Source: an uncultured bacterium
Lineage (GTDB): Bacteria; Verrucomicrobiota; Kiritimatiellia; RFP12; UBA1067
Direction of reading: 5' to 3'
Assembly (NCBI GenBank): GCA_903935195.1
Contig: CAIZQW010000466.1
Span: 1-41,711 of the forward strand
DNA: 41,711 nucleotides
Both the position numbers and the translations under genes were made by a program. Below the pieces are notes generated by a model that was not told where the DNA came from, did not search any database, and was given only the letters and a program-made list of their open reading frames with translations. This document shows, one piece after another, positions 1,806 through 18,609 of the stretch. How positions within the stretch are numbered: the stretch's first letter is position 1; every line of letters starts with the position of its first letter.

Positions 1806-3329
1806 CTATTCATGGATGACTTGCGCTTCAAAGACAAAGAAGGTGGCACCCTTGTCACGCCACGCATCTTTGGGAAGTCCTGCCTTGAGCGCGAGATGGG
1901 TAAGGGTCTCTTCGACTCCCCAGCCTTGCTCAGGTGCGACTTGCGGAAGAAAGACAGCGCTTCGGTTCGCGCAGGTGAGAAGGACACCGTGTTTTCCAAT
2001 TTCGATCCCTTGCCACGAGGCAATGGGACGTAGTGGTGTCAGGATAGAGATTTCGAGTTTTAGACGGGCAAGTTCGCCTTTGCTCAGGGGTTCGAAACGC
2101 GTGTCATGAAAGGCGGCATTCAGGGACTGTTCGCGCACGACCTTCCAGATTTCGCGGCGGGGCATGATCTCGCCGATGCATCCGCGTAGCTCACCGTCCA
2201 GATTCAACGTGACGAAGCCTCCGCGCACGGCTTGCATGCCAGGTGTGACCACGGCAGGGGGCTTGCCCAGCGCAACGGATTCACCCTCTTTAAAGGCGCA
2301 TTGGAGCGTGGAACGGACTAGTTCAAGGAGCTTCTCACAGTCCGCCTTCTCCAAGTGCTCTGAGGGTGGCGGGTCTTTTACGGGATGGTTTGGGGTCTGG
2401 GACCAGGTTCCATTGACGAGAGCGCCGATGTAACTGACCGAGTTTGAACGATCATGTAGCATCTTCCCTGATGTCTCATACCCGGTTTTCTGAACCACAG
2501 CATCCTTCGGCATCAGCGCGATCAGAAACGCGAGAGGATCACGTCCGCAGACCGTTGCACCAGTTTCATTTAAGTATTTGATAAAGCCGTCGAGGTCCTT
2601 ATTTGTAAAGAGTTCGAAGACGCCCATGTCGAGGGTTTCGATGTTCTTCTCGACATCCTGTGTGAAGGGAACATATCCATAATTGGCACCATAGTGTGTG
2701 AAGTCCGAGCTGGCGATGACCAGTGTTCCTTCATCGAGCAGTTCTCGCAGGGCTGAGGCTGCTTCAATAAGATGTTTCGAATCGAATTGTCCGCAGACCA
2801 TGCAGACCACAGGAATTTTTGTGGAGAGACAGTGCTGAATGAGCGGGAGTTGAATCTGGTCGCTGTGCTCCCGCAAATGGGCTTGCGGTTCGCTGGTGAC
2901 AAAGGGGAGTTTGCGCAATTTTGCAACAAAGGCGGTGTCGACCGTCAGTTCGCCAAGGGGTGTTTTAAAGTGTGTTGCCTCTGGGACGCTGACAAGATTG
3001 GTCATTCCCACGTAGTGGCTGGGGCCCATGACAATGATTCGTTTCAGGGGTTTGGGGTCGATCCGCAAATAGACACTTGCGGCGACGGCTCCTGAGTAAC
3101 GGTAGCCAGCATGGGGAACGACAGCCGCACATATATGCTGCTTCCGAACAGGAGATAAGCCGCGCAAGCGCTCATTCAAATCATCCCGCAGGCCCGTTTC
3201 ACTTTCAGAAAACCAGTGTCCTGCCAAAGGAGAAACCATGACTTTCTTCATTTCAACATCCTTCCTACACACGGTTAAAAAGGCAACACATGCACTGATT
3301 AAGACAGTCAGTAAGCCAACCCATTTCAT
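1806..3329 (-). CDS. AmmeMemoRadiSam system protein B/A fusion (Memo domain + AMMECR1 domain)
   Basis: A 507-residue fusion. Residues ~30-310 are a Memo-like (AmmeMemoRadiSam protein B) domain related to class III extradiol dioxygenases, with VVPHAGYRYSG, GPSHYVG, SSDFTHYG and CGRDPLAF as the conserved putative metal-site segments. Residues ~330-507 are an AMMECR1 domain (RGGFVTLNLDGELRGCIG, then AAFHDTRFEPL and LEISILTP). These families usually occur with a radical SAM partner, which is not in the window; the biochemical role is unresolved. The first 26 residues are hydrophobic (a possible signal anchor), whereas Memo proteins are normally cytosolic. Two starts have good ribosome sites: ATG at 3329 (AGGAG, 6 bases) and the internal ATG at 3251 (AAGGA, 7 bases), the latter giving a leaderless protein beginning MKKVMVSP. 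Confidence 0.85.
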   Translation of the reverse strand: MKWVGLLTVLISACVAFLTVCRKDVEMKKVMVSPLAGHWFSESETGLRDDLNERLRGLSPVRKQHICAAVVPHAGYRYSGAVAASVYLRIDPKPLKRIIVMGPSHYVGMTNLVSVPEATHFKTPLGELTVDTAFVAKLRKLPFVTSEPQAHLREHSDQIQLPLIQHCLSTKIPVVCMVCGQFDSKHLIEAASALRELLDEGTLVIASSDFTHYGANYGYVPFTQDVEKNIETLDMGVFELFTNKDLDGFIKYLNETGATVCGRDPLAFLIALMPKDAVVQKTGYETSGKMLHDRSNSVSYIGALVNGTWSQTPNHPVKDPPPSEHLEKADCEKLLELVRSTLQCAFKEGESVALGKPPAVVTPGMQAVRGGFVTLNLDGELRGCIGEIMPRREIWKVVREQSLNAAFHDTRFEPLSKGELARLKLEISILTPLRPIASWQGIEIGKHGVLLTCANRSAVFLPQVAPEQGWGVEETLTHLALKAGLPKDAWRDKGATFFVFEAQVIHE

Positions 3330-3837: not shown

Positions 3838-3853
3838 AGCCCCGAGAGGGGCT
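3838..3853. terminator. Short hairpin at the convergent fmdB/ftsZ ends
   Basis: AGCCCC-GAGA-GGGGCT makes a perfect 6-bp stem with a tetraloop and overlaps the ftsZ stop codon. A second stem, CCCT-GTTTTT-AGGG, lies at about 3786-3800. Neither is followed by a clear T-run, so intrinsic termination is uncertain. Confidence 0.35.
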
Positions 3854-5036
3854 ACCGGTCGAGTTGGATGTTCTTTCGGATATAGGTCGGGATATCGAGG
3901 TCCTGACCATTGAAGATGGTCGGCTCGACATTTTGAAACTTCCCTTTCCCCGTGGCTCCGACAGCGAGTTTGGACTTCCCTTTGTTACGTCTCGCACCGC
4001 CTGGCTGAATATGGAAGACCTCAGCGGGGGGTACGGAGGGAACTGTTGCTGGAGATGCAGACGAGACTTTTTTGGTATCGGGTAGGGGAGCTCCAGTACT
4101 TTCAAAACAGAAGAGAACGACTTCGATGCGCCACTCGAAGGAGGCATCCATCACCGTTCCCATTTCAATCTGACAGTCTGGTTTACACCAACCGCGCAAG
4201 GTTTTCATAATCTCGCCGATCTCAGAGAGACGAAGATCTGAGCCTGCAAGAATACCAACCAAGAGGGCATTTGCCTTTTTGATGGATTCGCCTGCATGGA
4301 GCAGTTGACTTTCACAAAGGGCCTTTGTCAAGGTTGTAGCCCGATCCGCTCCAGTGGCTTGTACGGTACCAAAAGTTGCAGTACCTCCCTGCACGATAAA
4401 CGAATGGAGTCGTTCGGCATTAATACTTAAGAAGCCGGGACGCGTCAAGAGACGCCAGAGCAATGTCACACCCGACGCGAGTATCTCATTGGCTGACGCG
4501 ATGGCGGCAGGGAGTTGGACCTCATTCGTCGCGTTGAAAAGTTCATCAAGCTTGATGCTGCACAGCGAGTCCACATGATCTTCAATCATGGCTTGGGCTC
4601 GATTGGCGATTGCACGTCGTGCGGGTCCTTCAAAGTCAAAGGGTTCTGTGGCGATGCAGAGGGTTGCAATCCCTTGTTCGTGTAAGGTGCTAACGACTTC
4701 AGGGGTGACACCACTTCCTGTCCCTGCACCCATACAGGTGAGAATAACCGCGGTGCGCACACCTTGCAGATGCGGGTGTAGCAGGTGAATATCATCTTGA
4801 ATAGCGAGTCTGCCTTTGACTGCATCGCCGCCCGTTCCGTTACCCGAAAGACGCGCTGCACCAATGAGGAGGCAGGGGATGGCGTCTGCACTCCATTCAC
4901 GATTTGCCATGGCATCGGTGTCAATACAAACGATCCGCATCGGCTCCGCATAGCGCTGATGGATGGCAGCAGCTAATCGTGAGCCACCCCCGCCAATACC
5001 GATCAAGATAAGAGGTAATTGATGTTCGTTGTTCAT
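3852..5036 (-). CDS. ftsZ: Divergent FtsZ, cell-division tubulin homologue with a degenerate T7 loop
   Basis: A 394-residue FtsZ, the GTP-binding scaffold of the division ring. The N-terminal glycine loop (IGIGGGGSR, residues 12-20), the tubulin-type T4 loop (GAGTGSG, 103-109, against the usual GGGTGTG) and the PFDFEG...R segment (132-141) are kept. The final residues DLDIPTYIRKN match the conserved C-terminal peptide that binds FtsA and ZipA. The T7 loop, which completes the GTPase site of the next subunit, is altered: aligned without gaps from TRPG to ADRA, the catalytic N-x-D-x-x-D reads S204-I-N206-A-E-R209. The gene overlaps ftsA by ATGA, so the two are probably translationally coupled. 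It may be a slow or non-hydrolysing FtsZ, or one of two paralogues. Identity as FtsZ is secure; activity is not. Confidence 0.9.
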   Translation of the reverse strand: MNNEHQLPLILIGIGGGGSRLAAAIHQRYAEPMRIVCIDTDAMANREWSADAIPCLLIGAARLSGNGTGGDAVKGRLAIQDDIHLLHPHLQGVRTAVILTCMGAGTGSGVTPEVVSTLHEQGIATLCIATEPFDFEGPARRAIANRAQAMIEDHVDSLCSIKLDELFNATNEVQLPAAIASANEILASGVTLLWRLLTRPGFLSINAERLHSFIVQGGTATFGTVQATGADRATTLTKALCESQLLHAGESIKKANALLVGILAGSDLRLSEIGEIMKTLRGWCKPDCQIEMGTVMDASFEWRIEVVLFCFESTGAPLPDTKKVSSASPATVPSVPPAEVFHIQPGGARRNKGKSKLAVGATGKGKFQNVEPTIFNGQDLDIPTYIRKNIQLDR

Positions 5037-6238
5037 GAATGAAACACTTTCCCGATGAGTTTGCGAAGGGGTGAGAGCAGTCCAGTGTCTTCGTAGGTTT
5101 TCTGGCCATAGATGATGAGGCCCGCAACCGTTGCGTATGAAGCGGGTTGCTCAACCTTATCAACGAGCCCTTCAACATTGATGGGGAGTCCGATCTTGCA
5201 AGGGATACCCAGTGTACGTTGAGCCAGTTCTGAGAGTTTTCGCAGATAGGCACCTCCTCCTGTGAGTACGCAACCTGCTCCCAAGTGGATGAGAACGCCT
5301 GCCTCTTCTAATCGTGAGCGGAGGATCTTCAAGGTCTCCTCCATACGCGCATTGATGACAGCGTGTAGGGCCTTGTAGCTGATGGACCGTTCCGCAGCTC
5401 CGACCTCTGCAGGCAACGCAATACGGCGGGAAGCACCCGTGGGTTCGATGATGGCTGACCCATCGCTTCTTTTGAGTTCTTCCGCACGGAAAAGGGGGAT
5501 CGTGAATGCCAACGCAATATCATTTGTGATATGATCGCCGCCTACAGCAATACTACCAATGGCCGAGACGATACCGTTTGTATACGCCACATAATTAGTG
5601 GTGCCGCCACCAAAGTCAATCAAGACCACACCATTCTTCTTTTGTTCGGGGGTGAGAACGGCTAACGCTGCGCAGACCCCTGAGAAAGCCACATCGGTTA
5701 CATCGAGCCTGGCGCTTTTGGCCACATTCACGACATTCTCAATGCGATTTTTTTGTCCATGAACAATAAGGGTGCTGAAGCTCAGTGTATTGCAACGCAT
5801 GCCTTGCGGTGCAAGGATACCAGGCTGATCATCAAGCGTATAGGTCTGGCGAATCGTGTGTAGTACTTGGCGGTCGATCTCCAGCTGTGTTTCGTTCGCG
5901 ATCGAGGTCACCTCTTCCACATCTTCGCGCGTGACGACACGGTCACTTGAACGAATCGGGATTTGTCCGTTGCCATGATTCGACTGAATATGCCCTCCGG
6001 AGGTGGCCATCAAGACTTGCCAGACATCCACGCCGGCCGCCTTCTCAGCCTCCATTGCCGCGGTATCCACTCCGAGCTGTGCCTGCTGGAGGTCAATGAC
6101 TTGACCTTTCCGAACGCCTGTGGTCGGATATTTTCCGATCCCTGTAATTCGCATCTTTCCGTCTTCCCCGGCCTCGCCGACACACACGACGGTCCGAGAC
6201 GTTCCGATTTCCAATGCTGCAATTGGAGGCATTCCCAT
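5033..6238 (-). CDS. ftsA: Cell division protein FtsA
   Basis: An actin-fold ATPase that anchors FtsZ to the membrane. Visible actin-family motifs are ALEIGTSRT near the N-terminus (phosphate 1), VVLIDFGGGTTNY (phosphate 2) and VLTGGGAYL (adenosine site). The C-terminus SPLRKLIGKVFHS is a basic amphipathic helix of the kind that inserts in the inner membrane. The start at 6238 (MGMPPIAAL) is preferred because GAGG lies 6 bases upstream; an in-frame ATG at 6250 is the alternative, and the longer upstream frame lies inside ftsQ. It follows the ftsQ stop by about 20 bases and overlaps ftsZ by 4 bases. Confidence 0.93.
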   Translation of the reverse strand: MGMPPIAALEIGTSRTVVCVGEAGEDGKMRITGIGKYPTTGVRKGQVIDLQQAQLGVDTAAMEAEKAAGVDVWQVLMATSGGHIQSNHGNGQIPIRSSDRVVTREDVEEVTSIANETQLEIDRQVLHTIRQTYTLDDQPGILAPQGMRCNTLSFSTLIVHGQKNRIENVVNVAKSARLDVTDVAFSGVCAALAVLTPEQKKNGVVLIDFGGGTTNYVAYTNGIVSAIGSIAVGGDHITNDIALAFTIPLFRAEELKRSDGSAIIEPTGASRRIALPAEVGAAERSISYKALHAVINARMEETLKILRSRLEEAGVLIHLGAGCVLTGGGAYLRKLSELAQRTLGIPCKIGLPINVEGLVDKVEQPASYATVAGLIIYGQKTYEDTGLLSPLRKLIGKVFHS

Positions 6239-6260
6239 ACTCAACCTCATCTCTCTTACG

Positions 6261-7148
6261 TTATTCGATACCCGGGAGGGTTGCTGCAATCCGTCCCTGC
6301 ACCCGTGCATCCCACATCAAACAGATCGAGCCTGCTTCAGTTTCCATGAGCCGCGCGAGGTCATCAAAGTGAGCCTGCATCTTTGCAAAAGTATCCTTCT
6401 CATCATCGTCCATACCCTCCCATGCAAACTTGGCTTGACGGTGATCCGAGAAGGTTAAGAGCAGGTAGTCGTCTTTTACGGTATCCAATTCAAGGAGACG
6501 CAGTCGGACTTCAGGACGCTGCGCAGAATTGACGAGACGTACCGCAGACATATCAATTCCCCGCAACCGATCGCCGGGTTTCAAGCTCCCAATGTTTTCT
6601 GATCCTTTGATTAAGGGCAGTGTGCCGATGCCAGCGTTACGGTTGAAGACAACGCCCTCCTCGTCAATGACACGGCCCTCTGTTCCCTTCATGCCGATAC
6701 GGGCAATCGGTTCGCGTTCAGTGATCGTGATGATGAGTTTATTCGGCATTCTCCGGACAATCGTAAGGTCCCGGATGTTTGCCGTCCACTCGAGCAAGTC
6801 TTTCCGTTTCTGTTCGATTGGAAGATCAAAGACATTTACCCCTTCAGTTAACCCTAGTACGCCACAGATGACTTCAGCTGTCAGCGTCTTTCCGGTTGTG
6901 ACGGTGACGTTTTTACGGATGTCCTTTAATGTAAAAATAGGGGAGGTTCTGAAGTAGTAGTGATTAAAGAGGAACCATCCGCCTTGGCAAACAAGCCAGG
7001 TTGTCAGGAGTATGAGCACGAGTAGCAAGCTGAACTTGACTTTGGGAGGAAGTTCAATGCCCGTCTGGATACCGGTCACGCGGCGTCCATTACCCGTTGC
7101 ACGCCCAGGGGGAGGTGCGGGTTTACTTTTAAAAAGAGTCCATTTCAT
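6261..7148 (-). CDS. ftsQ: Cell division protein FtsQ (POTRA domain)
   Basis: A 295-residue single-pass inner-membrane protein that links early and late divisome proteins. A basic cytoplasmic stretch is followed by one membrane segment (FSLLLVLILLTTWLVC, ~residues 36-51), then a POTRA-like region (FTLKDIRKNVTVTTG ... GVNVFDLPIEQKRKDLLEW ... IRDLTIVRRMPNKLIITITER) and the FtsQ beta domain. The start at 7148 (MKWTLFKSK) is chosen since longer versions run far into ddl. No good ribosome site is visible. Gene order ddl-ftsQ-ftsA-ftsZ supports the name even though sequence conservation in this family is low. Confidence 0.88.
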   Translation of the reverse strand: MKWTLFKSKPAPPPGRATGNGRRVTGIQTGIELPPKVKFSLLLVLILLTTWLVCQGGWFLFNHYYFRTSPIFTLKDIRKNVTVTTGKTLTAEVICGVLGLTEGVNVFDLPIEQKRKDLLEWTANIRDLTIVRRMPNKLIITITEREPIARIGMKGTEGRVIDEEGVVFNRNAGIGTLPLIKGSENIGSLKPGDRLRGIDMSAVRLVNSAQRPEVRLRLLELDTVKDDYLLLTFSDHRQAKFAWEGMDDDEKDTFAKMQAHFDDLARLMETEAGSICLMWDARVQGRIAATLPGIE

Positions 7149-7194
7149 GAGGTCGTGATCTTTGTAACTTTCTTCGCGGATATCATGAGAATAC

Positions 7195-8097
7195 TTAATG
7201 ATGTGCGGCAAGTGATAATAGATGTACGCAGAGTGTACCGAAGGATTCACCTGCGCGTGCTGCGGCTTTCGGTAGAAGGCTGGTTGCGGTAAGTCCAGGC
7301 AGGGTGTTGACTTCGAGAATAAACAATTGGCCCTCTGGTGTGACACGGAAATCAACACGACTGACCCCGCGACAGCCCAGCGCGTGAAAAGCTTGAACCG
7401 CCACGTTCTGGCAGGTGAGAAGCAGTGCACGATCCACGTCCGCCTCATCCTCAGGGAAAAGATACTGCGTCATGCCCGCCGTGTATTTTTCTTTGAAGCC
7501 ATACCAGCCGTTTGGCGCCCGGATCTCGACGACAGGCAAGGCCTTACCACCGAGCACGCCCACGGTCCATTCACGGCCAGGGATGTAGCGTTCAACAAGA
7601 ACCTCTCCAAGAGGGTCAACGCTGCGGGCTTCGGCAAGGGCAGTAGCCCATTGGGAAGGCTCTGACACCTTGGAAATACCGACACTGGAACCGTCTCTGG
7701 GTGGTTTAACGACCACGGGGAGGGGAAGGGACGAGGAGGTCATGTCGTTGGTCAGGACTTCATAGGGGGGTGTGGGAAGATTCGCGGCATCCAGACAACG
7801 CTTCGTCGCAATCTTATCCATGGCAAGTTTGCTTGCAGCAACACCAGGCCCCGTGTAGGGGATACTTAATTGGTCGAGGTCATGTTGCACTCCGCCATTC
7901 TCACCATATCCGCCGTGAAGGGCCAAGAATACAGCCTCGATATCACGAGGAAGCTCCTCGACGCTGTCTTTATTGAGGATAACAGGGAGGACCTCAAGCC
8001 CTTCGGCTTGCAAGGCAGAAACAACGGCTCCGCCCGAGCGCAAAGAGACTTCTCTCTCGTTTGATGTTCCACCCATGAGGACTGCTACGCGTTTCAT
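7195..8097 (-). CDS. ddl: D-alanine--D-alanine ligase
   Basis: A 300-residue ATP-grasp ligase that joins two D-alanines for peptidoglycan precursor synthesis in the cytoplasm. The N-terminus VAVLMGGTSNEREVSLRSG, the ALHGGYGENGG segment, the ATP-grasp stretch VVVKPPRDGSSVGI and the metal-binding end (RVDFRV ... FILEVNTLPGLT) are all typical. An EKY motif stands where D-Ala-D-Ala enzymes have tyrosine rather than the phenylalanine of D-Ala-D-lactate ligases, which suggests normal D-Ala-D-Ala product. It heads the division cluster; murB/murC, often upstream, are absent here. The 157-base gap upstream should hold its promoter, and a terminator in it closes the rplQ operon. Confidence 0.95.
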   Translation of the reverse strand: MKRVAVLMGGTSNEREVSLRSGGAVVSALQAEGLEVLPVILNKDSVEELPRDIEAVFLALHGGYGENGGVQHDLDQLSIPYTGPGVAASKLAMDKIATKRCLDAANLPTPPYEVLTNDMTSSSLPLPVVVKPPRDGSSVGISKVSEPSQWATALAEARSVDPLGEVLVERYIPGREWTVGVLGGKALPVVEIRAPNGWYGFKEKYTAGMTQYLFPEDEADVDRALLLTCQNVAVQAFHALGCRGVSRVDFRVTPEGQLFILEVNTLPGLTATSLLPKAAARAGESFGTLCVHLLSLAAHH

Positions 8098-13151: not shown

Positions 13152-14924
13152 CTAATCCGTTTTACGTTCGGTGTAGTGCGTATGCAGGAGCTCGTGAGAG
13201 GTATGACCGAGTGGCGTGCCAAGAAATTGCGCGTATAGATCCAAAACTTGCTGGTTTTGATGGGATTTGCGCAGTTTTTTGCCTTCATCCTCGGCATAAA
13301 TGCCTGCAATGCGCTTCAAACGTACACTGTCGTCGGTGAAGCGGGGTTGCCCGCCGCCGCCAATACAACCGCCTGGACAGGTCATCACCTCAACAAAGTG
13401 ATAGGTGGCTTCGCCGTTTTTGATTCGCTCCAGTAGTCGGCGTGTATTGCCCAGTCCATGGCTGACGGCCACACGGAGCTCTACGCCCTCCAGGAAGGAC
13501 CACTCGGGTACGGTTCCCTTAATGGTCAGGGCAGCCTCTTTCACCCCCTCAAGGCCTTCGATGGCTTTGACATGGAGATTATCGACAGGGAGTTCGCGTC
13601 CCGTCACGATCTCGTAAGCGGTTCTCAAGGCGGCTTCCATCACACCACCCGTGTTGGCGAAGATGTCTGCAGCCCCTGAAGAGAGCCCCAGTGGCGAATC
13701 CATCTCACCGTCTGGGAGGGCGTTAAAGTCAATGCCCGCCTCACGAATCATCCGTGCGAGTTCGCGCGTGGTCAGCACATAGTCCACGTCACGCACACCG
13801 CTCGCATTCATCTCCGGACGCTGGGATTCAAACTTCTTTGCAGTACAGGGCATGACAGAGACGACGACCATCTCTTCAGGTTTACGGTCAATCTTCTTGG
13901 CGTAATAGGTCTTCGCCAGAGCCCCAAACATCTGCTGTGGCGACTTGCAGGTCGAGAGGTTGGGTAGGAATTGCGGGTAGTAGTACTCCGCGAATTTGAT
14001 CCACCCCGGCGAACAACTGGTGAACATCGGGAGGGCGACCTTCTTCTCCTCGACCAAGGCTGTTTTTAGTCGGGTGAGGAGTTCGGTGCCCTCTTCCAAA
14101 ATAGTCAGGTCAGCTGTAAAGTTCGTGTCAAAGACAGCATGGAAGCCGAGTTGACGAAGCGCGGAGACCATTTTGCCGGTGACGCGGGTTCCAGGAGGCA
14201 ACCCAAAGGCTTCGCCCAACGCCGCACGAATGGCGGGAGCGGTCTGGACAACAACGGTTTTTGTTTTGTCGTCCAACATGCGCCAGACATCTTCAATCGC
14301 GCTGTGTTCGCTGATGGCCCCAACAGGGCAAACCGCGGCACACTGACCACATTGCACGCAGGCAACTCCATCGAGCTTGCGCGTAAAGGCAGGTCCAATG
14401 ACTGTCGAAAAACCACGTCCTTGCGGAAAGAGAGCTCCAATACCTTGAACCGAGGAACACACCGTGACACAACGACGACACTTGATGCATTTGCTGTTGT
14501 CACGTGTGAGTGCGGGCGTTGAGGTGTCCATGAGTGGTGCAGCCTTGGCTCCTTGATACGTGATATCACGCACGCCAAGGTCAGCAGCCAAGTTGCGCAA
14601 TTCGCAATCCTCGCTCCGGTCGCAGAGTTGACAGTTACCGTCGTGCTCTGAAAGCAGGAGTTCGACCACTTGCTTGCGGGCTTGGCGTACGCGACGCGTA
14701 TTGGTGTGAATCACCATCTTGTCTGCACAAGGCGTTGCGCAAGCGGCCATGAGGGTTTTTGCCCCCTCGACCTCGACCATGCAGACGCGACAGGCGCCGA
14801 GCGGATCATTTTTCTCTAAGAAACAGAGAGTTGGGATCGTGATTCCTGCTTGACGTGCTGCCTGCAGGATGGTGGTTTCCGGCTTGACCGAAACCGGCGC
14901 TCCATTTATTGTGACCTGAATCAT
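13152..14924 (-). CDS. hydA: [FeFe]-hydrogenase catalytic subunit of a multimeric NAD(P)-linked enzyme
   Basis: A 590-residue H2-producing/consuming subunit. In order: a [2Fe-2S] domain (cysteines at about 34, 45, 48, 62), the His-Cys [4Fe-4S] motif HDGNCQLCDRSEDC (94-107), a two-cluster ferredoxin (CIKCRRCVTVC at 146-156 and CVQCGQCAAVCP at 189-200) and the H-cluster domain with L1 TSCSPGW (302-308), L2 MPCTAKKFE (358-366) and L3 VEVMTCPGGC (511-520). A helical small-subunit-like tail ends in SHELLHTHY. The start at 14924 (MIQVTING) overlaps the hydB stop by ATGA. With the NuoF-like and NuoE-like partners this matches the architecture of electron-bifurcating or NAD(P)H-linked hydrogenases. 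Maturases HydEFG are not in the window. The cytoplasmic role, fermentative H2 release, is inferred. Confidence 0.92.
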   Translation of the reverse strand: MIQVTINGAPVSVKPETTILQAARQAGITIPTLCFLEKNDPLGACRVCMVEVEGAKTLMAACATPCADKMVIHTNTRRVRQARKQVVELLLSEHDGNCQLCDRSEDCELRNLAADLGVRDITYQGAKAAPLMDTSTPALTRDNSKCIKCRRCVTVCSSVQGIGALFPQGRGFSTVIGPAFTRKLDGVACVQCGQCAAVCPVGAISEHSAIEDVWRMLDDKTKTVVVQTAPAIRAALGEAFGLPPGTRVTGKMVSALRQLGFHAVFDTNFTADLTILEEGTELLTRLKTALVEEKKVALPMFTSCSPGWIKFAEYYYPQFLPNLSTCKSPQQMFGALAKTYYAKKIDRKPEEMVVVSVMPCTAKKFESQRPEMNASGVRDVDYVLTTRELARMIREAGIDFNALPDGEMDSPLGLSSGAADIFANTGGVMEAALRTAYEIVTGRELPVDNLHVKAIEGLEGVKEAALTIKGTVPEWSFLEGVELRVAVSHGLGNTRRLLERIKNGEATYHFVEVMTCPGGCIGGGGQPRFTDDSVRLKRIAGIYAEDEGKKLRKSHQNQQVLDLYAQFLGTPLGHTSHELLHTHYTERKTD

Positions 14925-17900
14925 ACGTGCACCTCTCTGACTTTTCCGGATTTTCCATAATCGCACCGCAGACAACGACAGGCTTGGCGGCGGGCAGCGG
15001 CTTCATTCCAGGGTTGTTCGACCTCGTCGAAGTTGTTTTTTCGACGATTGATAGGAATCATGTTGATCTCTTCCCGTGGATAGGGGGTCGGGTCGGCATC
15101 TGGGTCGTAATTGATATTGAGTTCAGGATAAGTCCGCCAGAAGGCGTGGGACTCGCCTGAGAGCTGTGCATCAATCGCCACTGCAGCACGTTCCCCTGCA
15201 GCAATAGCTTCAACGACAGAGGAGGGGCCTGTGACATCATCACCGCCTGCAAAGAGCCAGGGTAATGAGGTCTTGCCTGTGACGGGATCAGCTTGAATCC
15301 AGCCACTCTCTGTCAATGCGACATCGATTGTGCCGAGCATCTTTTTGGCATCGAGACCTTGTCCGATCGCCAAGATGACTTGGTCGCAGGGTATGGTTTC
15401 GAGATCCTTGTCGGAGCCTGCTAACGCCTTGCGACGTCCGCTACGGTCGTAGTCACCCAAGGTCATCGAACGACAGATGACGCCGGTGACCTTGCCCTCT
15501 GCCACAGTAAAGGCTTCAGGCGAACAGAGCGTGAGAAGACTGACACCCTCTTGCTGAGCCTCTTCGATCTCCTCCGCATACGCGGGCATCTGCTCGCGTG
15601 TACGACGATAAACAACCGTCACGTTCTCTGCACCCAGTCGTAAGGCTGTGCGAGCAGCATCAATGGCGGCGTTTCCGCCACCAATCACGACGACTTTCTT
15701 TCCGACAGGAGCCGAACCTCGAATGTTGTAGGTTCGCAGGAAATCCATCGACTCGATGACACCCTGCGCCTCTGCGCCGACCACATCAAGCTTCATACCT
15801 TCTGGAGCTCCGACAGCCAAGAAGATGGCCTCGTGACCCGCATCGCGCAGACTCTGCAAGGTGTAGTCTTTGCCGAGAGCCTGTCCAGTCTGAATGTCCA
15901 CACCGAGCGATTCGATCAAACGGATTTCGCGTGCCAACGTCTCACGGGGCAGTCGGTAGGCTGGAATGGCCTGCACCAGCATGCCGCCAGGACGGGGTTC
16001 GCGTTCGAGTACAATAGGTTTATACCCCAGACGTGCGAGGAAGTAGGCGCAGGTCAGTCCAGCAGGACCGGCCCCAATAATCGCAATCTTCTTCTTTGCA
16101 TTCGTTGCGTTTTCCTTAACCTCGGGACGCTGGATTACGACCTCTTGGTCCACCATAAAGCGTTTGACACCACGAATGGCAACAGGACTGTCCAACGAAC
16201 TACGACGGCAGTGATTCTCGCAGGTATGGAAACAGACACGTGCACAGATGGCGGCAAACGGGTTACGCTCACGATGGAGGCGCAGCGCCTCTGCATAACG
16301 ACCTTCACCGACCAGAGCGACAAATCCCGGCACATAGACACCTGCGGGACAGGCACTCAAGCAGGGGGCCAGCACAAGAGAGGGGCAGACACCTGCAACG
16401 CAATGGTGGTCACGGATGTGCTGCACATACTCCTCGCGGAAGTGGCGTATGGTAGAGAGGACAGGATTGGGTGCGGTCTGGCCGAGGCCACAGAGAGAAG
16501 ACTCCTTGATGAAGTTTCCAAGGTCAATTAACCGTTGGATATCGTCCATCTCACCTTCACCTCCGCAGATGCGTTCGAGAATTTCGAGCATGCGCTTGGT
16601 GCCAACACGGCAGGGTGCGCACTTTCCGCATGACTCTTCTTGAACGAACTCGATAAAGAAACGAGCCACATCGACCATGCAGGAGTCTTCGTCCATGACG
16701 ATGAGGCCTCCTGATCCCATGATAGAGCCGAGTTCCTGGAGTTTTTCATAATCCAGAGGAACGTTCAGATTTTGACGTGGAATACAACCACCAGAGGGTC
16801 CGCCGAGCTGAGCGGCCTTGAAGGCTTTGTTGCCTCGGATGCCACCGCCAATATCATAAACAACCTCGCCCAGCGGGGTTCCCATGGGCACTTCAACAAG
16901 TCCTGTGTTTTTAACTGCGCCAGCCAACGCAAAAACCTTGGTTCCTTTGCTCTTGGGTGTTCCCATGCTGGCAAACCATTCACCACCGTTCAAGATGATC
17001 GGGGCAATACACGCATACGTCTCTACATTGTTGAGAAGCGTTGGTTTTCCCCATAAACCTTTTTGGGCGGGAAACGGTGGACGCGGACGTGGCTCGCCAC
17101 GCTTACCTTCGATCGAGGTGATCAAGGCCGTCTCTTCGCCACAGACAAAAGCGCCTGACCCCATGCGGATATCCAAGTCAAAGGAGAACGTGCTCCCTAA
17201 GATATTCTTGCCAAGCAACCCATGTGCGCGGGCTTGGTCAATCGCCAGTTGCAGGCGCTTGACCGCTAAAGGATATTCGGCTCGGACATAGACAAAACCC
17301 TCATCGGCTCCGATGGTAAAGGCTGCGATGGCCATGCCTTCGATTACGGTATGGGGGTCGCCTTCTAAAACGCTGCGATCCATATAAGCACCCGGATCAC
17401 CCTCGTCTGCATTGCAGAGAACATACTTTTTATCACTCGGCGATTGACGTGTCAGCATCCATTTGAGATGCGTCGGGAAGCCAGCGCCCCCGCGTCCTCG
17501 CAGGCCAGAGACTTGGATTTGGTCCAAGACATCGGTGGCTTTCAGTGTGTCAAGTACCTTGGCTAACGCGGAATAGGCTCCCGCCCGAACAGCATCGTCG
17601 ATTTGTTCTGGATCAATGTTTCCGCAGGTGCGCAAGACAACTTTGGACTGCTTTGAGAAGAAGGGGATATCTTTACACGTCCGCTGAATGGCCTGGGTCT
17701 GTTCGTCACGCACGAGGAGTCGCTCAACGGGTTTACCGCCAATCAGATGTTCGGTAACAATCGCTTCAGCATCCGCAGGTTTTACCCCCTGATAAAAGGT
17801 TTGGTCTGAGCCAATTAAGATGACGGGGCCACGGACACACGGGCCCATACATCCCGTCTCACGGATTCCGATTTTCTTCTCGAGATTGTGAGCCTTTAAC

Positions 17901-18064
17901 GCCGTGAGTAAGGCTGCTTCAACATCGCGCGAACCCGAGGCCAGGCAGCTGCCTCCGACGCAAACAAGAATCTCCTTCTTGGTGTCTGCTTCCTTGGTGA
18001 GTTTTTCTTGCCATGTCTTCAGGGCTGCAGTGTTTTTGATTTTTGTGATTTTTGCTGCACTCAT
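14921..18064 (-). CDS. hydB: Hydrogenase flavoprotein subunit: NuoF-like domain fused to a GltD/NfnB-like NAD(P)H oxidoreductase
   Basis: A 1047-residue fusion. Residues ~30-105 are a thioredoxin-like [2Fe-2S] domain (C35, C40, C72, C76). Residues ~140-545 are the NuoF module: GRGGAGFPTHLKW (190-202, FMN/NADH site), NADEGDPGAYMDR (218-230), and the [4Fe-4S] motif SCGKCAPCRVGT (478-489) with C525. From about 560 the usual ferredoxin tail is replaced by a GltD-type region: an N-terminal cysteine domain (CLSACPAGVYVPG; CARVCFHTCENHC at 607-619), an FAD fold (IIGAGPAG, 662-669) and a second dinucleotide fold (VVIGGGNAA, 792-800). Typical HydB is about 600 residues. The extra flavoprotein could give a second pyridine nucleotide site, perhaps NADPH. 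It overlaps hydC and hydA by 4 bases each. Confidence 0.9.
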   Translation of the reverse strand: MSAAKITKIKNTAALKTWQEKLTKEADTKKEILVCVGGSCLASGSRDVEAALLTALKAHNLEKKIGIRETGCMGPCVRGPVILIGSDQTFYQGVKPADAEAIVTEHLIGGKPVERLLVRDEQTQAIQRTCKDIPFFSKQSKVVLRTCGNIDPEQIDDAVRAGAYSALAKVLDTLKATDVLDQIQVSGLRGRGGAGFPTHLKWMLTRQSPSDKKYVLCNADEGDPGAYMDRSVLEGDPHTVIEGMAIAAFTIGADEGFVYVRAEYPLAVKRLQLAIDQARAHGLLGKNILGSTFSFDLDIRMGSGAFVCGEETALITSIEGKRGEPRPRPPFPAQKGLWGKPTLLNNVETYACIAPIILNGGEWFASMGTPKSKGTKVFALAGAVKNTGLVEVPMGTPLGEVVYDIGGGIRGNKAFKAAQLGGPSGGCIPRQNLNVPLDYEKLQELGSIMGSGGLIVMDEDSCMVDVARFFIEFVQEESCGKCAPCRVGTKRMLEILERICGGEGEMDDIQRLIDLGNFIKESSLCGLGQTAPNPVLSTIRHFREEYVQHIRDHHCVAGVCPSLVLAPCLSACPAGVYVPGFVALVGEGRYAEALRLHRERNPFAAICARVCFHTCENHCRRSSLDSPVAIRGVKRFMVDQEVVIQRPEVKENATNAKKKIAIIGAGPAGLTCAYFLARLGYKPIVLEREPRPGGMLVQAIPAYRLPRETLAREIRLIESLGVDIQTGQALGKDYTLQSLRDAGHEAIFLAVGAPEGMKLDVVGAEAQGVIESMDFLRTYNIRGSAPVGKKVVVIGGGNAAIDAARTALRLGAENVTVVYRRTREQMPAYAEEIEEAQQEGVSLLTLCSPEAFTVAEGKVTGVICRSMTLGDYDRSGRRKALAGSDKDLETIPCDQVILAIGQGLDAKKMLGTIDVALTESGWIQADPVTGKTSLPWLFAGGDDVTGPSSVVEAIAAGERAAVAIDAQLSGESHAFWRTYPELNINYDPDADPTPYPREEINMIPINRRKNNFDEVEQPWNEAAARRQACRCLRCDYGKSGKVREVHV

Positions 18065-18609
18065 GCTTTCACCGCCTCTTTCTCCGCTTGGGTGGCGGCT
18101 TGAGCACGATAGGACTCAAGGATTTCACCAACCTTTGTTGCCTTAACGCGCTGATGAAGATCGTCGTTGACCATTAAGACGGGGGCCATGCCACACGCGC
18201 CGAAACACCGTCCGACTCCGAGTGAGAATAAACGATCAGCCGTTGTCTCGCCTACGTCAATCCCTAGCTTATGTTTGAGGGCCTGAAGCAGTTCGTTGCC
18301 GCCACGAACATAACAGGCGGTTCCGAGACAGACACGTATCAGATAGGTTCCACGCGGAACTGTCGAGAAGAAGGAGTAGAAGGTCACCACGCCCGCGACT
18401 TCACTGTACGGCTTACCAAAGAGGTGGGCAATTCGTTTAATCACCTCTTCAGGGAGATAGCCGAGTCGTGTTTGAGCGATTTGGAGCGCGGGAATGACGC
18501 CGCCAGGTTTTGATGCGTATTCCTGGAGCATCGGTTCGAGCTCTTCGATGATCTGGGCTTCTGTTAAGGAACAGTTGCCACAGCAACAGTTACCTGTTGT
18601 ATCTGACAT
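18061..18609 (-). CDS. hydC: NuoE-like [2Fe-2S] subunit of the hydrogenase
   Basis: A 182-residue thioredoxin-like ferredoxin subunit that passes electrons within the hydrogenase complex. The cluster ligands are CLGTAC and CFGAC (C-x4-C and C-x3-C). GVVTFYSFFSTVPRG is the conserved NuoE segment. The N-terminus carries four extra cysteines (NCCCGNC, residues 7-13) not needed for the core cluster. The ribosome site GAAGGAGG is strong. First of three overlapping genes hydC-hydB-hydA. Confidence 0.93.
   Translation of the reverse strand: MSDTTGNCCCGNCSLTEAQIIEELEPMLQEYASKPGGVIPALQIAQTRLGYLPEEVIKRIAHLFGKPYSEVAGVVTFYSFFSTVPRGTYLIRVCLGTACYVRGGNELLQALKHKLGIDVGETTADRLFSLGVGRCFGACGMAPVLMVNDDLHQRVKATKVGEILESYRAQAATQAEKEAVKA

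Follow-up and report, generated by a model that had tools for sequence, protein, structure and literature searches.

Division gene cluster in the window

The window, by which we mean the whole 41,711-nucleotide stretch of DNA analysed, carries an intact ftsZ gene in the gene order ddl, ftsQ, ftsA, ftsZ, which is that of a normal division cluster. The genes of this cluster are as follows:

3852..5036, minus strand: ftsZ, 394 aa, intact; Pfam Tubulin and FtsZ_C domains, both over cut-off
5033..6310, minus strand: ftsA; TIGR01174 at 321.4 bits, over the cut-off of 175.85; overlaps ftsZ by 4 bp (ATGA)
6261..7448, minus strand: ftsQ (POTRA_1), assigned from profile matches
7195..8097, minus strand: ddl, D-alanine--D-alanine ligase of the division and cell wall (dcw) cluster, assigned from a profile match

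The first ATG of the ftsQ open reading frame falls within ddl, so the true ftsQ start is probably further downstream. The ftsZ product scored 69.6 bits against PF00091 (Tubulin; cut-off 33) and 49.4 bits against PF12327 (FtsZ_C; cut-off 27), and reached 153.7 bits against the NCBIfam ftsZ equivalog model TIGR00065, whose cut-off is 295.2. Because FtsZ misses its equivalog cut-off whereas FtsA passes its own, the window FtsZ is unusually divergent next to an ordinary FtsA. An AlphaFold2 model of the protein, made with 11 sequences (mean pLDDT 72.7, pTM 0.72), has a core mostly above pLDDT 70 and a disordered tail, and compares with solved FtsZ crystal structures at a target-normalised TM of up to 0.94, in the range of an FtsZ fold.

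Elsewhere in the window, a single open reading frame at 1806-3329 (minus strand) appears by eye to join an AMMECR1-type domain to a MEMO-type protein. The cluster at 13152-18609 (minus strand), also judged by eye, encodes an iron hydrogenase together with subunits that resemble those of NADH dehydrogenase, and suggests an anaerobic fermenter. No RNA family was found in the window.

The T7 loop and the nucleotide pocket

The preliminary description had placed S204, N206 and R209 where nearly all FtsZ proteins have N, D and D, and this reading was borne out. HMMER alignments to four solved FtsZs run through the T7 loop without gaps (canonical TRPGLMNVDFADVRT, window TRPGFLSINAERLHS) and pair S204 with N207, N206 with D209 and R209 with D212 of E. 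coli. The loop reads SINAER, and the NxDxxD catalytic motif is absent. The T4 loop, the PFxFEG segment (PFDFEG at residues 132-137) and the C-terminal FtsA-binding peptide are all still present, as had also been claimed. Features within ftsZ are listed below:

3855..3902, minus strand: C-terminal FtsA-binding peptide DLDIPTYIRKNIQLDR, which includes DLDIPTYIRKN (sequence and alignment)
4410..4427, minus strand: T7 motif S204-I205-N206-A207-E208-R209, against N207-V-D209-F-A-D212 (alignment to the solved FtsZs and 55 members of the order)
4434..4445, minus strand: T198-R199-P200-G201, the entry to T7; P and G (positions 203 and 204 in E. coli numbering) each unchanged in 53 of the 55 FtsZs of the order
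4548..4550, minus strand: L163, which replaces the guanine-contacting N165 of T6; L in 38 of 55 order members, N in 106 of 122 other members of the phylum
4617..4619, minus strand: R140, equivalent to E. coli R142 and S. aureus FtsZ (SaFtsZ) R143, retained (alignment; role from PMC8936486)
4710..4730, minus strand: T4 phosphate-binding loop GAGTGSG, residues 103-109, intact (sequence and alignment)
4908..4922, minus strand: T2 loop D39-T-D41-A-M43, with D39 for N43 and M43 for Q47, which binds K+ in SaFtsZ (alignment; role from PMC8936486)

The T4 loop differs from the strict tubulin signature [SAG]GGTG[SAT]G by one change, of the second G to A, and is otherwise glycine-rich. Besides the T7 residues, four positions of the pocket are substituted (N24 to R20, N43 to D39, Q47 to M43 and N165 to L163), while D41 and the T4, T5 and T2 phosphate contacts are retained. 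The retained R140 corresponds to a residue, SaFtsZ R143, that the available text of PMC8936486 describes as arginine-finger-like. Compared with canonical FtsZ (TIGR00065; E. coli, S. aureus, M. tuberculosis), the window protein shares the predicted fold, the T4 GxGTGxG, PFxFEG, R142, the FtsZ_C domain, the C-terminal FtsA-binding peptide and adjacency to ftsA, whereas N207, D209, D212, Q47, N165 and N24 are all replaced.

The changes at N24 (to R) and N165 (to L), together with altered positions 186/187, raise the question of whether the pocket still reads guanine, or whether this FtsZ polymerises with another nucleotide or with none. Across the order N165 is lost in 50 of 55 members and N24 is R in 24 of 55. 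A change of nucleotide nevertheless seems improbable, as the phosphate contacts of T4, T5 and T2 are kept, family f4 of the same order keeps N165 despite its loss of D212, and other members of the phylum frequently have R or K at N24 as well.

Two technical sources of the unusual T7 residues were considered and rejected. Misalignment of T7 was rejected for the order because its FtsZs align there without gaps. A sequencing or assembly error was rejected on the grounds that an independent metagenome-assembled genome (MAG) of the same genus (G001/L186) carries the same T7 residues; assembly error is also disfavoured by L062, L084 and L129, phylum members with eroded T7 whose genomes are single contigs.

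Copy number and selection

The preliminary description had allowed for a second FtsZ on which division may depend and had proposed a search for one with an intact NxDxxD motif, but none was found in the genome to which the window belongs: a PF00091 profile search returned one locus, the window FtsZ as query matched only itself at E<=1, and Tubulin_2 (PF13809) gave no match. Among 60 order-level relatives searched, 57 had an FtsZ match, exactly one each, and three had no match. The assembly is approximately 92% complete, and a second ftsZ in its missing part is unlikely because the same single-copy pattern runs across the order.

Against the second genome of the genus (G001), ftsZ gave a dN of 0.017, a dS of 0.43 and a dN/dS of 0.039 (Nei-Gojobori), the lowest ratio among seven neighbourhood genes compared (FtsA 0.050, FtsQ 0.095, Ddl 0.094), and the two genomes share the same T7 residues. 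In the window's genus, ftsZ is under strong purifying selection. It is thus very improbable that the gene is an inactive paralogue beside a canonical FtsZ. Nothing in favour of a paralogue was found, and the incompleteness of the genome leaves room for a missing second copy; against it stand the single tubulin-family match, the absence of a Tubulin_2 match, the one FtsZ per genome in 57 order members, the position in the division cluster overlapping ftsA, and the dN/dS. On single copy, dN/dS and dcw position a dead paralogue was rejected.

In seven genomes of the order, SepF and ZapA, sought as alternative partners, were not found, and the FtsW/RodA family was present in all seven. A contig search returned one locus, identical to that of G001. 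This locus lies in a public MAG (CAMBQV010000063.1, L186) labelled Akkermansia muciniphila, and the label looks wrong.

Distribution of the T7 change

FtsZ sequences were extracted at 185 loci spread over the order, class and phylum, in genomes that are mostly MAGs, and 177 of them were aligned with two canonical references; the very divergent phylum members L155, L156, L158 and L182 aligned poorly and were given little weight. The comparison with related FtsZs that had been proposed at the outset gave a uniform answer for the order, where none of 55 members has an acid at position 212. In the rest of the class 45 of 61 members keep it, and in the rest of the phylum 19 of 61, counts over related sequences that do not represent independent events. 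An intact N-D-D set occurs in 0/55, 15/61 and 1/61 of these groups, and neither 209 nor 212 is acidic in 9/55 (the window included), 0/61 and 5/61, respectively. Within the order, N207 is lost in 51 of 55 FtsZs, D209 is kept in 46 and N43 is replaced by D in all 55. The substitution thus characterises the order as a whole and is not peculiar to this protein. Outside the phylum, in a control set from IMG/VR contigs, all 68 readable FtsZs have N-D-D, although the full-length ones form 9 clusters at 80% identity and their effective number is small. A search of viral contigs specific to the order found nothing.

R, K or H occupies position 212 in 43 of 55 order members against 6 of 122 elsewhere in the phylum (Fisher p ~1e-23, phylogeny ignored). 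In the gene tree the order forms a clade (support 0.67) whose base state at 212 is a non-acid. Many of the sampled Verrucomicrobiota FtsZs (the phylum that includes Verrucomicrobium spinosum and its VerFtsZ, PMC1845146) likewise lack D212 (having T, S, A or G) or N207; what sets the window's order apart from them is a recurrent base at 212, E at 211 and F or Y at 205. T7 catalytic residues are not mentioned in the available portions of three papers on Verrucomicrobiota FtsZ (PMC1845146, PMC12283558 and PMC9871819), and loss of these residues in the phylum is not reported in the open-licence literature, as far as its available text goes.

Another account is that T7 degeneracy is drift under a GTPase requirement relaxed across the phylum, with nothing special about the order. 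The acid at 212 is missing in 42 of 61 other phylum members (one of them by a gap), by Fitch parsimony over the phylum positions 212, 207 and 209 changed 16, 22 and 26 times, respectively, and Verrucomicrobiota FtsZs are reported among the most divergent of bacteria in the accessible part of PMC9871819. We regard this account as unlikely for the order, in which P, G, [FY], E211 and R212 are less variable than drift suggests and to which R, K or H at 212 is almost limited.

Two other groups in the phylum show T7 changes of their own. L061-L073, mostly of family f47 and comprising many genera with near-complete genomes, have T, A or G for D212 and keep N207 and D209, a separate loss of the second aspartate. 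L084 and L176 (family f45, genus g99, 2.2-3.3 Mb, several closed genomes) have Q-G-D or N-G-E at 207/209/212; this genus, which looks well sequenced and has lost D209, could serve as a practical test system.

The replacement motif and position 209

The order-wide T7 replacement is the conserved motif PG[FY]Ix[LF]D[AP]ER, with D changed to N in the window's genus. Besides the conserved P203 and G204, all members have F or Y at position 205, 42 of 55 have E at 211 and 43 of 55 have R, K or H at 212; in the window's family (f1) the counts are 32/34 for E211, 29/34 for D209 and 28/34 for R212. Some members of the order have no acid in the motif at all: LGPAFL (L009), LSPAML (L029) and LSPATL (L089). 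Judged from the alignment, the T7 of the order reads as a new motif and not as decay. The initial reading of a lost T7 loop therefore stands for the canonical catalytic triad, which is gone, but not for the loop itself, which has been remodelled into a conserved motif.

Helices are usually N-capped by N, S, T, G or D. Over the whole set, 38 of the 42 non-D residues at position 209 are N, T, G or S, with three A and one E; only 4 of the 327 columns, one of them 209 itself, reach this fraction of 0.90, against a median of 0.22. In the AlphaFold2 model helix H8 begins at residue 207 and N206 is its N-cap, so the D to N change in the window would keep the helix cap. This pattern suggests that the role of position 209 is structural rather than catalytic. 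The N-cap pattern would also account for the retention of D209 by most order members, which weakens that retention as a proof of catalysis.

Comparison with T7 mutants and tubulins

In SaFtsZ, a swing of D210 positions the catalytic water, the site is shaped by D213 together with N208, and K+ is bound by N208 and Q48; N208L, D210N and D213N each suppress assembly (PMC8936486). N206 of the window is the exact change of S. aureus D210N. E. coli FtsZ D212A keeps approximately 7% of GTPase activity (PMC8142252), B. subtilis D213A gives slower treadmilling and thicker rings (PMC8079713), and rings and septa still form when FtsZ(D212A) is over-expressed alongside the wild-type protein (PMC4383033). 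FtsZ is essential in V. spinosum (PMC12283558). The engineered D212A/D213A and SaFtsZ N208L/D210N/D213N proteins are altered at the same positions as the window FtsZ (D to N at 209), but they are otherwise adapted to hydrolysis, whereas in the window FtsZ the whole interface has diverged together. Since the same single changes in SaFtsZ abolish assembly and do not stabilise filaments, the interface of the window FtsZ must have been rebuilt.

By the established equivalence, position 212 of FtsZ corresponds to residue 254 of tubulin. The T7 residue K254 of beta-tubulin leaves the GTP of alpha-tubulin unhydrolysed, and the same block is predicted for K248 of archaeal AtubA, in the available text of PMC13394414. 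Like these, the window R209 puts a base at the position of the catalytic acid, a likeness of working and not of membership, and taken as an analogy beta-tubulin K254 is the nearest mechanistic counterpart of the window T7. In tubulin, however, inactive and active interfaces alternate, whereas with one FtsZ all interfaces in the window organism would be identical.

Hydrolysis in the window FtsZ

What we infer about catalytic rate and turnover starts from residues, conservation, single copy and selection that were observed directly, and from a predicted fold. The reading we prefer, with a probability of roughly one half (0.5), is that this is a genuine, single and functional division FtsZ, an order-wide variant with a remodelled T7 whose interfacial GTP hydrolysis would be strongly reduced. 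Position 209, the H8 N-cap, would serve mainly to cap the helix (as D, N, S or G), and the second catalytic aspartate (212) has been exchanged for a basic residue, in most cases arginine, a situation also seen in the T7 loop of beta-tubulin. GTP binding would probably still drive head-to-tail polymerisation, and filaments would still be tethered to FtsA by the C-terminal peptide. Filament turnover would then be slow, or remodelling could proceed via FtsA, GTP-FtsZ exchange or proteolysis. Strongly reduced hydrolysis is favoured because the members with an acid-free motif (L009, L029 and L089) keep a single FtsZ, and because of the N-cap pattern at 209 and the tubulin precedent. Several features count the other way: D209, E211 and the invariant N43 to D change may form a relocated catalytic set, R140 and D41 are retained, and the corresponding single changes in SaFtsZ abolish assembly.

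The strongest rival to reduced hydrolysis is that catalysis has been rebuilt, with E208 (position 211), R209 and the new T2 acid D39 hydrolysing GTP at a useful rate. It is favoured by the near-invariance of E211 in the window's family (entropy rank fraction 0.13, near that of the structural P and G), where every member without D209 still has E211 (L001, L007, L014, L030 and L106), and by the N43 to D change in all 55 order members within a motif that is conserved and not decaying. Yet E near a helix start is also a common helix-stabilising choice, the sampled members of f2, f4 and f5 and one of f6 lack E211 and still have one FtsZ, and the side chains of 211 and 212 point approximately 100 degrees apart on the helix. 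Nor does N43 to D, present in 59 of 122 members elsewhere in the phylum, track loss of the 212 acid; with no association across these 122 class and phylum members, it was rejected as a compensation for that loss. We consider rebuilt catalysis possible, on balance doubtful.

In model bacteria, FtsZ-based division is regarded as requiring treadmilling powered by GTP hydrolysis. If hydrolysis is strongly reduced as we prefer, a further and more tentative proposal is that the whole order divides with one FtsZ that binds GTP and essentially does not hydrolyse it, its Z-ring being independent of GTPase-driven treadmilling. As a natural experiment, the order bears on whether bacteria must hydrolyse GTP with FtsZ in order to divide. 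Should hydrolysis really be low, FtsZ can serve as a scaffold without it; should it not be low, FtsZ has a second catalytic arrangement, and either answer would be new. This phylum, much of which lacks D212, may also be poorly served by family models and FtsZ inhibitors fitted to the canonical interface.

Other tubulin-family proteins

Second, very divergent tubulin-family proteins were seen in a few genomes of the phylum outside the order (L130:295-1392, L167, L169:253-1353 and L172:469-1566). They are approximately 366 aa long, begin with M[SN][IV]G[IV]GGAGSKLA, and match PF00091 weakly and Tubulin_2 not at all. Dozens of IMG/VR contigs (L188-L252; for example L213:1477-2409 and L210:1477-2412) carry a short FtsZ of approximately 312 aa with N-D-D intact, which stops directly after the FtsZ_C domain and has neither linker nor FtsA-binding peptide. 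This short form is possibly a phage protein that interferes with or hijacks host division.
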